Assembly (NCBI GenBank): GCA_003167415.1 | Contig: PMTF01000016.1 | Span: 148-64,147, forward strand | Direction: 5' to 3' | Origin: Acidimicrobiaceae bacterium | GTDB taxonomy: Bacteria; Actinomycetota; Acidimicrobiia; Acidimicrobiales; RAAP-2 | DNA: 64,000 bases | In this document: in pieces, positions 2,226 through 5,373 of the stretch | How the letters are laid out: each line of letters starts with the position of its first letter | How positions within the stretch are numbered: position 1 is the stretch's first letter | Notes under the pieces: model-generated | Database searches by the model: none | Told to the model about the DNA's origin: nothing | What the model saw: only the letters and a program-made list of their open reading frames with translations | Position numbers and translations under genes: made by a program

Positions 2226-2891
2226 CTACATCGGCCATTCGTCGTGGTGGCGTTCCACGTACGCGTTGTCAAAGGCCCATCGCGCGTTGGCGATGAACTG
2301 TCCTAGGAGGACGGGATCCTTCTCGCCTACCGATTTTTCGACGCCGGCGCGTACGTCAACACCCCAGACCGGGTAGTTCTGCACGATGTCCACCACGTTG
2401 GAGGGCGTCAGCCCACCGGAGGCGATCATCGGGGTTCGCACCTCGCGGTCACCGAACAGCTCCAGACAGTCCATCAGTGAATAGTGGTCATCGGATTCGG
2501 GCACCACGAGGTAGTCGACGCCCGAGAGGGCGGCCACCAAGTCGTGATTGGCCGTGCTGGGCAGGCTTCGCAACACGGTGTTGACGCGCTCGGACACGTA
2601 GGTGAGCTCTTCCTTCGCGATCGTGCCGTCGATTTGAACCGCCGAAAGTCCGAGCGTGTTGGCGATCTCCACGATGCGCTGGGGCATCTCGTTGCGAAAG
2701 ACCCCCACCGATATCGCGCCCACCGGGAGACGGCGAACAATATCGTGCGCGGCGTTGACCGAGATCTGGCGCGGCGTCGGACCGAAGTCGAAACCGATGG
2801 CGCTCGCCCCGAGCCCGATGGAGAACAGTGCGTCGTCTTCGGTGGTAACGCCGGAGACCTTGATGAAGATGCCGTCTGTAAGCAACCGCAC
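2226..2891 (-). CDS. TrpF-like TIM-barrel protein lacking the catalytic Cys
   Basis: 221 residues if started at GTG 2891, which has a perfect AAGGAG 5 bases upstream. A longer frame to GTG 2939 exists but adds residues outside the family fold. The fold resembles phosphoribosylanthranilate isomerase: KVSGVT near the N-terminus, GASAIGFDFGPTPRQIS, VGVF, ASGGLTPSNV and GVDVRAGVE with GEKD. In true TrpF the first motif is KxCG with Cys as general base; here it is Ser (residue 13). The general-acid Asp region (usually LLD followed by GGTG) reads LVVPESDD with no GGTG, and QLHG is QIDG. The TrpF reaction is therefore doubtful. It lies directly downstream of tnpB and convergent to fabF. Confidence 0.7.
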   Translation of the reverse strand: MRLLTDGIFIKVSGVTTEDDALFSIGLGASAIGFDFGPTPRQISVNAAHDIVRRLPVGAISVGVFRNEMPQRIVEIANTLGLSAVQIDGTIAKEELTYVSERVNTVLRSLPSTANHDLVAALSGVDYLVVPESDDHYSLMDCLELFGDREVRTPMIASGGLTPSNVVDIVQNYPVWGVDVRAGVEKSVGEKDPVLLGQFIANARWAFDNAYVERHHDEWPM

Positions 2892-2929
2892 TTGTCGACT
2901 CCTTGGCCGTTGCAGCCGAGTGATCTCCA

Positions 2930-2987
2930 GTGAGTCCACTCACGTTGCCCTCCTCACGGAGTTGTTCGGTCTAAAAGACTCTAGACC
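2930..2987 (-). ncRNA. candidate 3' part of a TnpB guide RNA (reRNA/omegaRNA)
   Basis: On the minus strand the end of tnpB contains three adjacent stem-loops: GGTCTA/TAGACC arms at 2968-2987 with an 8-base loop; CTCC-GTGA-GGAG within 2949-2961; and a 14-base palindrome GTGAGT-CC-ACTCAC at 2930-2943 that spans the tnpB stop codon. TnpB guide RNAs are known to derive from the 3' end of the tnpB transcript and the right end of the element, with the guide taken from flanking DNA. The hairpins are seen in the sequence; the RNA itself is inferred and its exact ends are not determined. Confidence 0.3.
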
Positions 2988-4304
2988 TCCCTTGCGCGTG
3001 TCTTCGCCAGCCGCTGAGTGAGACTCAGTCTGATGCTCGGCTCCACGCTTCACCGGGGCTCCAACTGAACCCAGGCTCGCCCATCTGGCGAGGTTTATAG
3101 CTGCGTTGTCGTCACGCTGGTGTGAAGAAGAACATTCCTCACAGTTCCATTGCTCGGACCAGCCAATGTCCTGCACGTGACCACAGTCGTGGCACGTTTT
3201 TGAAGAAGGAAAGAACCGGTCAGCTTCGATCAAGGTGGACCCGTACCAGGGGCACTTGTAGCGAAGCTGACGGCGGATCTCACCAAGGGCTGCGTCAGAA
3301 AGCCCGCGCCGGCGCGAACGCGCGCCGGGAAGACTTTTCTGCTTCAGCATCGCCGACGCGTCCAAGCCCTCGACCACAATCACGCCGTGGGTCTTGGCGA
3401 GATTCGTGGTGAAGACGTGGAACGTGTGCTGGCGAATAAGGGCCGCATCTGCATAGAGACGGGCAATCTTTTGTGTGGCCACCAGGTACTGGCGCGAACC
3501 GCGTGTGCGTCGACTCCGTTGGCGCTGAAGTAGGCGTAGTTCCTTCAAACGACCCTCCAGAGCTCGAGGGTTGGCGAGTTCAGCGATCACCGTGTCAACT
3601 GTGGCGACTGTCGCCAGACGTCGCACGCCGACGTCGACGCCGACTACAGAATCGGGTTGAGAGACGCCGGCTTGTTGAGGACGAACGATCGACACCCGCA
3701 CCGCCGCGATGATCCGGTCCCCGTGTCGCGAGACGGTGACCCCCAACACCTTCGCTCGATCCAGGACAATCAAGCGCTCTAGGCGCCGAGTGTTTTCGTG
3801 AGTGCGGATTGTCCCGAGCACAGGCAGCGTGAGGTGTCGTCGATCGGATTCGAGCCGCATCGCGCCAGTCGTAAAGGAGAATCGATCTCGGTCGCGGCCG
3901 CGCTTTTTGAACCGAGGAAATCCAACGGGCTGACCGGCAATCATCCCCTTGCGCGACTTCTGCCATCGCCAGTAAGCGTCGTTGGCGCCACGCACGCCGT
4001 CGGCGAAGACCTCCTTCGAGATGTCGGTCCACCAGACCTCGCCTGTTTCGTCGTTGGCGCACACCGTGTTCTTCTCGGTGTTCCATTGCTTTCGCAAGCT
4101 GTAGAAGGACGGCGCGGTCGTTGATTCGCACGTGGCGCGGTGATGCTCGATGGAGTCCTTTATCTGGGAAAGAGCCCAATTAAAGGCGAAGCGGCGAGCG
4201 CCGAAAAACCGGTTGATCAACACCATCTGTTCGTCGGTGGGATCGAGGGCGAAGGAAAAGCCTTGGACGACCCGGCCTTCGGGTGGTTGGTACTTACTCG
4301 GCAC
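2940..4304 (-). CDS. tnpB: TnpB, IS200/IS605-IS607-type RNA-guided nuclease
   Basis: 454 residues, GTG start with AGAGG upstream. Order of parts: N-terminal HTH/wedge region (FSFALDPTDEQ, FNWAL), RuvC I with D224 in VGVDVGVRRLATV, RuvC II with E312 in IVVEGLDASAM, a zinc ribbon with C371/C374 and C388/C391, and RuvC III with D398 in RDDNAAINLARW. All three acidic RuvC residues and four zinc ligands are present, so nuclease activity is plausible. No TnpA (Y1 or serine recombinase) lies next to it, so this is a lone tnpB or an element needing a transposase in trans. It sits between ygfZ and the TrpF-like gene, 48 bases from the latter's start. Confidence 0.92.
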   Translation of the reverse strand: MPSKYQPPEGRVVQGFSFALDPTDEQMVLINRFFGARRFAFNWALSQIKDSIEHHRATCESTTAPSFYSLRKQWNTEKNTVCANDETGEVWWTDISKEVFADGVRGANDAYWRWQKSRKGMIAGQPVGFPRFKKRGRDRDRFSFTTGAMRLESDRRHLTLPVLGTIRTHENTRRLERLIVLDRAKVLGVTVSRHGDRIIAAVRVSIVRPQQAGVSQPDSVVGVDVGVRRLATVATVDTVIAELANPRALEGRLKELRLLQRQRSRRTRGSRQYLVATQKIARLYADAALIRQHTFHVFTTNLAKTHGVIVVEGLDASAMLKQKSLPGARSRRRGLSDAALGEIRRQLRYKCPWYGSTLIEADRFFPSSKTCHDCGHVQDIGWSEQWNCEECSSSHQRDDNAAINLARWASLGSVGAPVKRGAEHQTESHSAAGEDTRKGGLESFRPNNSVRRAT

Positions 4305-4617
4305 GGCCTATGACCTCTGCTGACGTGTCGTGTGCCTCCGCATTGAGAGCACACGCCGCCTTATGGATGGCACCACGGCTCCGCAGATGGGTGAGCGGCC
4401 GGCCACAGTGGTTTCGGCGTTCGCCTCCTCGCCCATTATGACTCGACCCAACTTCTGAGCGAGATCTGGTGGCTCTTCCTCACGAAACCGCTGACAGGAG
4501 GTCTGGGGGTGTTTTCCTTGGAGGCGAACCCACTTTCTCAAATGCATTGCCTCTGAGTCTTGTGCGCAGGTGTTACGTCAGTGGAACGCTCACGTTAATG
4601 GCTCGCACTGAGTGCTG
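4305..4617. other. gene-poor stretch upstream of tnpB, probable left flank of the element
   Basis: About 310 bases between the tnpB and ygfZ-like genes. A 79-codon minus-strand frame at 4308-4547 shows no recognisable family features and is probably chance. A short inverted repeat GCACT-G-AGTGC at 4605-4615 lies just past the stop of the ygfZ-like gene and could be a weak terminator, although no T-run follows. The left end of the TnpB element should lie here, but its exact boundary cannot be seen. Confidence 0.4.
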
Positions 4618-5316
4618 TTAGGCAATCTCCGCGACGTGCACGTCGACGGCGTGTTCGAACTCCTCTGATCCAAGCAGACTCCGGTGCGCGAATCCGAGCC
4701 CAACGACCGTTTCACCATCGTGCATCGACGATGTGAGTCCCGACACTCCGGCGGGACCTTTTGAAGTGAGTACGTCGGCAATGCGCGATTCGTTCGGACC
4801 GGTCGCTCGAACCATTCGCCAGGGCACGCTCGAGCCTCGCGCGTCGAGACGCCCAACCAACTCTTGTCCGGTGAAACAGCCCTTGGTGAAGGAGACCGCG
4901 GAAGTGACGAAGCCAGCGCCGAAACACTGAGGCGTCAGGCCTCGCGCGAACTCGGCCGCTCCGGGCAAGCCCGCGTCAATCTGTTCGCGCACCGTGTTGA
5001 AGGGTCCATGTTCACGTTCGACCAACTCCAGCGTGCACTGGGTGCGAAGGAGGAATCGTCGAAGACGCGCGAGGGCGACGTCACCGAGCACTCGTGGCAC
5101 CGCCAGGTCATAGCCGTCAGGTGTGGTCGAAACGTGACACGACGTGATGACGATACCGTCGGGCGCGAGCAGGAGCGCCCACGCGCCAGTCGTGCTCACC
5201 GTCGAGACGTCTTGACTTAACTGGCCCTGAAGGAAGGACTCGGCTTCGGGACCGCGCGCGACGATGCTCGACCAGCGAACGGTCGAATCGATGACGGTGT
5301 CGGAGGTTTCATTCAT
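4618..5316 (-). CDS. ygfZ: YgfZ/GcvT-type folate-binding protein
   Basis: 232 residues from ATG 5316 (an in-frame TTG lies just before it). The family signature KGCFTGQE is present at about residues 145-152. Its cysteine is the conserved YgfZ residue that distinguishes this group from GcvT aminomethyltransferases. N-terminal FLQGQLSQDV also matches. YgfZ homologues bind folate and help assembly or repair of some Fe-S proteins; that role is inferred from the family. The gene is divergent from a small unknown gene at 5374. The intergenic gap upstream is only 57 bases and must hold its promoter. Confidence 0.85.
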   Translation of the reverse strand: MNETSDTVIDSTVRWSSIVARGPEAESFLQGQLSQDVSTVSTTGAWALLLAPDGIVITSCHVSTTPDGYDLAVPRVLGDVALARLRRFLLRTQCTLELVEREHGPFNTVREQIDAGLPGAAEFARGLTPQCFGAGFVTSAVSFTKGCFTGQELVGRLDARGSSVPWRMVRATGPNESRIADVLTSKGPAGVSGLTSSMHDGETVVGLGFAHRSLLGSEEFEHAVDVHVAEIA

Positions 5317-5373
5317 CAACCATTACAGTATTCGCCAGCGCGCGAGACGCTCCCAATGCAAAGGACCACGTCG

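Follow-up and report, generated by a model that had tools for sequence, protein, structure and literature searches.

What is a tnpB gene that stands without a working transposase, and does it still possess a guide RNA and a target? The window (i.e., the whole stretch of 64,000 nucleotides analyzed here) contains such a gene. An earlier note had read it as a lone TnpB with a guide RNA. Comparison with relatives supports that reading for the most part, and it also supports what had gone unseen at that time, namely that the locus is a decayed copy of an IS607 element (Table 1).

Table 1. Features of the element and its surroundings (window positions)
Feature	Position	Strand	Evidence
TrpF-like gene (phosphoribosylanthranilate isomerase family)	2226..2891	-	PF00697; start and leader compared with 29 relatives
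Predicted guide, first 20 nt; contains Shine-Dalgarno AAGGAG and trpF-like GTG start	2887..2906	-	bases after right GG; analogy with ISXfa1
Decayed IS607 element, whole, core dinucleotides included	about 2907..4589	-	similarity of relatives ends at 2907 and near 4589
Putative guide-RNA (reRNA/omegaRNA) scaffold, covers about the last 50 tnpB codons	about 2907..3092	-	covariation, synonymous variation, covariance-model matches
Hairpin 3, may pair with scaffold 3' end instead	2930..2943	-	two incompatible helices of about equal fit
Hairpin 2, CTCC-GTGA-GGAG	2950..2961	-	invariant in 21 copies
Hairpin 1, variable, covarying	2968..2987	-	two-sided pairs 5/7 in 21 copies, 6/7 in 22
tnpB, TnpB RNA-guided endonuclease family, 454 aa	2940..4304	-	NCBIfam NF038280; Pfam PF01385, PF07282, PF12323
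Probable tnpA remnant, C-terminal, residues 173-192, different frame	4318..4377	-	tblastn E 0.19, weak alone
tnpA remnant, N-terminal, residues 1-38 of 193	4434..4547	-	tblastn E 2e-8
Left end, degenerate: GC for the GG core of relatives, small deletions	4569..4589	-	comparison with relatives
TTAACGT box, possible -10 element	4592..4598	-	box in 27/29 relatives
YgfZ-like gene, upstream of insertion	4618..5319	-	weak sub-cutoff match to NCBIfam YgfZ models

An IS607-type TnpB with RuvC triad and zinc ribbon

As the earlier note had claimed, TnpB is intact, with a 454-amino-acid frame that starts with GTG and has no internal stop. The protein is of the IS607 type: it scored 537 bits with the NCBIfam model NF038280 (IS607_TnpB; cutoff, 350), whereas the NCBIfam IS200 model gave 196 bits, under its cutoff of 425. 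The RuvC residues D224, E312, and D398 and the four zinc-ribbon cysteines (C371, C374, C388, and C391), whose presence had likewise been reported, were invariant among 11 aligned TnpB proteins. The window TnpB thus has the RuvC D-E-D triad and the zinc ribbon of OMEGA/TnpB nucleases. When the protein is aligned with the solved TnpB 8bf8, its triad falls on residues 191, 278, and 361, which we take to be the catalytic residues there. ISDra2 is an element with an HUH-type transposase, unlike IS607. Its TnpB (PDB 8h1j, 8bf8, and 8exa) is related to the window protein over nearly the whole length (E about 1e-42), with the same triad positions. IS607 TnpBs from Mycobacterium plasmids showed 58 to 60% identity over 96 to 97% of the query in the five best records. 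An AlphaFold model of the window TnpB (mean pLDDT of 60 on a shallow alignment, with means of 36 or less in blocks from residue 401 onward) was set aside rather than taken into a fold search.

Thirteen further TnpB-like places, with 24 to 36% identity, were seen in the window genome (G000). At the nine of these places that were searched (L002 to L010), the scaffold described below had no match, and the right end of the window element is a single copy in its genome.

Ends of the element and the tnpA remnant

Among the 99 genomes of the genus, 15, the window's own included, contained close relatives (73 to 80% identity; E of 1e-90 or better). From the contig collection, 32 loci were drawn, some of them more distant. 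Removal of duplicates left 21 distinct copies including the window, plus L052, whose run of N excluded it from alignment A1. All 22 distinct copies were common up to ..AACGG and divergent immediately beyond, at window position 2907; the element end had previously been placed at 2930. A decayed remnant outside this set (L134) has the right end ..AACGA. Left ends consisted of GG and then GTTGCCAACTGATGTCACACC, with variants. Such an end was recognized in 14 of the 21 copies examined and was preceded by GG in 12 of the 14, the exceptions being the window and L032; a purine stood ahead of this GG in 11 of the 12 copies. No left end was recognized in six copies, and the left-end row of L054 was spurious. 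IS607 elements insert at GG and have this dinucleotide at both junctions; in the window, it stands at the right junction, and the left core reads GC. The distance from the left-end mark to the element's right end was 1999 to 2004 nt in 11 of 13 relatives, 1966 nt in L035, 1653 nt in L032, and 1675 nt in the window.

Relatives also revealed what had been lost between these ends. The 193-amino-acid TnpA of L024 matched the NCBIfam IS607 transposase model NF033518 with 212 bits, and this serine-recombinase gene is intact in six relatives. About 330 nt of it are missing from the window, where fragments are left at about 4318 to 4547. The N-terminal fragment is the sole match to L024 TnpA in the window genome at an E value of 0.001 or better, and the C-terminal trace sits directly ahead of tnpB, where the TnpA C terminus is expected. 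The claim that no TnpA adjoins TnpB was thus right in effect, but it overlooked the deleted tnpA remnant.

The window holds a copy of an IS607-family insertion sequence, which we file as decayed because TnpA, a serine recombinase with an N-terminal DNA-binding domain, is present only as a remnant. Elements of the IS1341 type similarly have TnpB between element ends and no working transposase (excerpt of PMC9956272). The window differs in keeping a recognizable tnpA remnant and, under the rule given in that excerpt, is therefore a decayed IS607 element; the TnpA-derived sequence adjoining tnpB rules out an IS1341 (TnpB-only) identity. Because tnpA is gutted and the left end is mutated, the element is probably no longer mobile by itself.

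Insertion ahead of a trpF-like gene

The flanks of the uninterrupted site L057 aligned with the window as far as position 2907 at one end of the element and position 4592 at the opposite end. In G034, where the site is uninterrupted, the trpF-like protein is 98% identical to that of the window, and the flanks show 94.7% identity from window position 2907 and 90.6% identity to 4592, with no element in between. This comparison with insertion-free genomes, which the earlier note had proposed, fixed the right junction at 2907 and put the predicted guide on the trpF-like leader and start. Altogether, 29 trpF-like loci were read (L057 to L085, the best-scoring matches besides the window's own). In the other 28, the 110 nt leading up to the trpF-like start contained no right end of the element (in L083, 52 nt were read, as its sequence begins there). 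For a second copy, L030 of G066, a contiguous counterpart was found in G077, with 93% identity and one extra base in the junction G run; in G066, the two flanks of the copy overlap by GG. For a third copy (L024), the search for an empty site gave no contiguous high-identity match, the best partial matches being at 68 to 73%.

A TAACGT- or TAGCCT-like box precedes the trpF-like start in 27 of the 29 relatives, at a distance of 22 to 26 nt except in L076 (13 nt; the start there may be misplaced). The window has this box directly beside the left end of the element, 1.7 kb from the trpF-like start, and the ribosome-binding site lies beyond the element; box and gene are thus separated by the insertion. 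The TTAACGT box is a possible -10 element. A consensus scan did not find a sigma-70 promoter, and a promoter role of the box is for this reason something that we infer.

A second TrpF homologue, with 33% identity, was observed in the window genome (G000:C29:46134-46733). Two or more TrpF matches at an E value of 1e-20 were present in 36 of 61 genomes, so the interrupted trpF-like gene may be a paralogue. Inspection by eye placed six copies (L030, L042, L045, L027, L032, and the window) shortly ahead of a start codon that points the same way, as might be expected if Shine-Dalgarno sequences frequently served as the G-rich target.

A putative guide-RNA scaffold overlapping the end of tnpB

The three 3' stem-loops that had been proposed as the site of a guide RNA were found where they had been reported, with arms at 2968 to 2987, 2950 to 2961, and 2930 to 2943. 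Across 21 copies, the three hairpins alone had 97.9% of cells paired and two-sided changes in 6 of 16 pairs, a result reached in 0 of 500 shuffles; five of these six pairs came from hairpin 1 and one from hairpin 3. Hairpin 2 is uninformative because it never varies. Hairpin 3 competes with a helix of about 2948 to 2937 with 2922 to 2912 (97.1% and 95.7% of cells paired for the two helices). Hairpins 1 and 2 lie in the scaffold, which extends at both ends beyond what the earlier note had proposed.

For the whole scaffold (about 185 nt), RNAalifold gave 55 pairs in the 21 copies, with 98.1% of cells paired. Two-sided pairs numbered 8 of 55, versus 3.2 in shuffles that take no account of kinship among the copies (0 of 500 reached the observed number). 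When partner positions were slid, pairing fell to 38% or less. In a 22-row alignment fitted to the covariance model, with L039 and L134 added and L034 left out (A3), two-sided pairs rose to 23 of 55, versus 4.8 in shuffles (again 0 of 500). L039 is a copy in a metagenome-assembled genome labeled Mycobacterium, located on a short contig. Its TnpB is about 60% identical to that of the window, and its scaffold is retained (E of 2e-29 with the covariance model, which was run on 19 loci including L039 and loci from Catellatospora). The earlier note had named a lack of conserved structure at 2930 to 3060 in homologues as grounds against a guide RNA; the opposite was found, i.e., a covarying structure at about 2907 to 3092 in the 21 copies and L039. 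In Catellatospora, a short scaffold core was also seen behind TnpBs of about 40% identity (L048, L050, L051, and L053), at E values of 0.1 to 5.

Synonymous variation in tnpB, calculated without the near-duplicates L034, L041, and L054, dropped four- to fivefold over the last 40 codons (observed/expected ratio of 0.22 in codons 415 to 454). Twenty-codon windows starting at codons 410 to 435 had a mean of 0.27 and a maximum of 0.37, versus a mean of 0.97 for those starting at codons 20 to 375. The lowest of the latter was 0.38, near codon 291, and blocks from codons 340 and 375 were already at 0.74 and 0.68; since dips also occur elsewhere in tnpB, synonymous variation does not sharply fix the 5' end of the scaffold. 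Covariation and synonymous depression together indicate a scaffold that covers the end of tnpB, from about 3092 to 2907, the boundary near 3092 being the less certain one. The window strand by itself folds with a moderately unusual stability (z of -3.0; 1 of 200 shuffles equally stable), and the strength of the case lies in the comparison among copies rather than in the single-sequence fold. The structured right-end RNA expected of OMEGA/TnpB systems, with a guide from just beyond the element, has its counterpart here in a conserved structure that reaches the right end.

No Rfam family matched the window at its gathering score. RAGATH-18 was not found, and at E values up to 10 the region from 2850 to 3150 gave two unrelated weak matches only. 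With no such motif seen downstream of tnpB, the element was not placed in the RAGATH-18 reRNA group of IS607.

Matches to the scaffold model turned up in 21 of the 99 genus genomes. Some were not accompanied by a strong TnpB match, and 18 places of this kind were inspected. Twelve (L121 to L132) lie where a contig stops, which may have cut off the remainder of the element. Among those inside contigs, L133, L134, L135, L136, and L138 are remnants; L133 and L136 are right-end remnants with much of the scaffold and no tnpB, and L133 directly follows a tRNA-like sequence (by eye). L137 (positions 1862 to 2106, on G085:C239) is a mini-element of 245 bp with both ends and no tnpB, in which the left end and the first 22 tnpA codons run straight into the terminal ~130 nt of the element's right end. 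In view of the 12 contig ends, the mini-element, and the five remnants, a separate solo guide-RNA system was rejected.

Predicted guide and target

In ISXfa1, a fixed base after the right end is part of the scaffold (excerpt of PMC10711439). By analogy, the guide of the window element would begin past GG, at 2906. The earlier note had expected a guide from around the trpF-like start, and the guide predicted here, 2906 to 2887, indeed comprises the ribosome-binding site and extends past the GTG start at 2891. A search of the genome for GG plus 15 nt of guide found no other place with 2 or fewer mismatches. With three mismatches, 23 places were found in G000, versus 4 for a reversed control, an excess that may be due to composition.

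For IS607 elements, the motifs AGGAG and GAGGG have been published from ISFba1 (excerpt of PMC11061315) and GGG from ISXfa1 (excerpt of PMC10711439). A motif rich in G is compatible with the left flanks of our copies, the candidate target motif at the window being about GAGG. The empty allele of G034 has two mismatches in the first 20 nt of the guide and is preceded by AGGAG instead of GAGG; because of both differences, it may escape cutting.

The resemblance to ISXfa1 includes a serine-recombinase element, a GG crossover, a guide RNA past the right end, and a G-rich motif (excerpt of PMC10711439); the window element differs in that its transposase has been lost and in that its motif and RNA ends are predicted. 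ISFba1 likewise has an IS607 TnpB and shares the AG-rich motif, and its right-end RNA is of similar length (184 nt), but that RNA does not overlap the coding sequence and includes RAGATH-18 (excerpt of PMC11061315), whereas the window RNA overlaps about the last 50 tnpB codons and has no Rfam match.

Loss of tnpA with persistence of tnpB

Both genes were covered in 17 of the 21 copies; contig ends cut tnpA or both genes in L045, L028, L041, and L054. A gene was scored as intact if one open frame ran to its end from residue 6 or earlier (TnpB) or from residue 1 (TnpA). Both genes were intact in six copies (L037, L031, L029, L024, L025, and L030), tnpA was broken and tnpB intact in six (the window, L042, L032, L035, L040, and L089), and both were broken in five (L027, L033, L034, L038, and L026). 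None of the 17 had an intact tnpA with a broken tnpB. The six copies with only tnpA broken were taken as five events because L035 and L040 come from one genome and have the same lesion. L027 was scored as tnpB broken on a stop in the C-terminal tail; scored as intact, it would add one tnpA-first case. L033 (G021) and L034 (G099) have the same insertion site and the same broken genes, and their right flanks differ by 1 base in the first 30 nt.

Because these copies had been found through TnpB, the 99 genomes were also searched starting from TnpA. Eight intact full-length TnpA copies were recovered, six with an intact TnpB; in the others, TnpB was open to the contig end (L143) or cut by it (L140). 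None of the seven testable copies had a broken TnpB beside the intact TnpA. Two TnpA fragments (L153 and L155) had no TnpB match in the stretch read. If lesions were proportional to length, the 2.3-fold-longer tnpB would leave a chance of about 0.30 for tnpA to be hit first and of about 0.002 for five hits of five, a bias that assembly errors in draft metagenome genomes could weaken.

Selection was gauged by pairwise distances. Relative to the six intact copies, the nonsynonymous distance of the window tnpA remnant (38 codons) was 1.96 to 2.25 times that of TnpB, versus ratios of 0.30 to 1.45 in 15 pairs of intact copies; in one of the six comparisons, some 38-codon block of TnpB was equally diverged. 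Pairwise dN/dS ratios of the window tnpB to 18 relatives were 0.12 to 0.19. These ratios give no sign of selection after the loss of tnpA, since copies with both genes broken were equally low (mean of 0.16, versus 0.17 for intact copies), and they mostly reflect the history before insertion.

Possible explanations

With a probability of roughly 0.85, the locus is a decayed IS607 copy with a gutted tnpA that retains TnpB and a scaffold whose guide would be directed at the empty allele, and cutting would favor the occupied allele. Within this reading, the element ends, an empty site, the loss of tnpA, the open TnpB frame with its catalytic residues, and the conserved RNA structure are observed, whereas we infer transcription, processing, the exact guide start, the target motif, cutting, and the advantage to the element. 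An IS607 element inserted at GG between the upstream box and the trpF-like ribosome-binding site. Its transposase gene was later gutted and its left end mutated, while TnpB and the right-end scaffold stayed intact. A transcript that passes from tnpB into the trpF-like gene would be cut down to the scaffold (about 3092 to 2907) and the guide (2906 down), and this guide would match the site in its uninterrupted form. TnpB and this RNA would then cut the empty allele beside the G-rich motif (about GAGG), and the occupied allele would be favored. According to excerpts of the sources, the TnpB family is capable of RNA-guided cutting (PMC8612924), its guide RNA is released by trimming of the tnpB message (PMC10278001), and element-bearing DNA was favored over empty DNA when IS200/IS605 elements were in plasmids (PMC11870625).

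The same anatomy might have no present function, TnpB being merely unbroken so far and the scaffold being intact through a recent insertion. We consider this possible, with the odds somewhat against it. The gutted tnpA and mutated left end fit such an explanation, as do the absence of the insertion from G034 (at a dS of 0.19 to 0.28 in the flanking genes), the 5 of 17 copies with both genes broken, and the existence of tnpA fragments without tnpB. However, the tnpA remnant is about twice as diverged as TnpB at amino-acid-changing sites, and every single-gene lesion fell in tnpA despite the greater length of tnpB. It is improbable, by comparison, that the host has tamed the element as a TldR-like regulator, with a ribonucleoprotein that binds DNA or with trimming of the tnpB RNA tied to trpF-like expression. 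The coincidence of the predicted guide with the trpF-like ribosome-binding site and start codon would suit such a role, and so would the separation of this gene from its conserved upstream box. TldRs, however, are nuclease dead, with an inactivated RuvC, and the intact triad of the window TnpB does not allow that identity. Moreover, the guide has no second genomic place within two mismatches, and the element was seen at this site in none of the 29 relatives read, which gives no sign of long maintenance. Least probable is that the 3' hairpins form a terminator or arose by chance. The single-sequence z value of only -3.0 would be compatible with chance, but the covariation exceeds all 500 shuffles and the structure, which extends precisely to the end of the element, is retained in the mycobacterium-labeled L039. 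A scan of the minus strand between 2200 and 5400 gave no terminator-like site.

A more far-reaching version of the preferred reading, i.e., retained cutting of the empty allele, is doubtful. Across the genus, TnpB and its guide RNA would repeatedly outlive the transposase because they are selected as a stationary guardian that cuts empty alleles. At this locus, trimming would also remove the ribosome-binding site from some trpF-like messages, coupling their expression to nuclease assembly.

Implications for lone TnpB genes

It has been called unclear whether elements with TnpB alone are autonomous or represent copies in decay (excerpt of PMC9956272). Here, a route of decay is visible within one genus, together with ends, empty sites, and remnants: the single-gene lesions seen are in tnpA, and tnpB and its RNA persist. 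What keeps lone TnpBs becomes testable, because both a natural guide and its natural target allele are predicted, and the scaffold is a starting point toward testing a further IS607 TnpB. The element is of an ordinary kind, but it shows cleanly one way in which lone cutters can arise.
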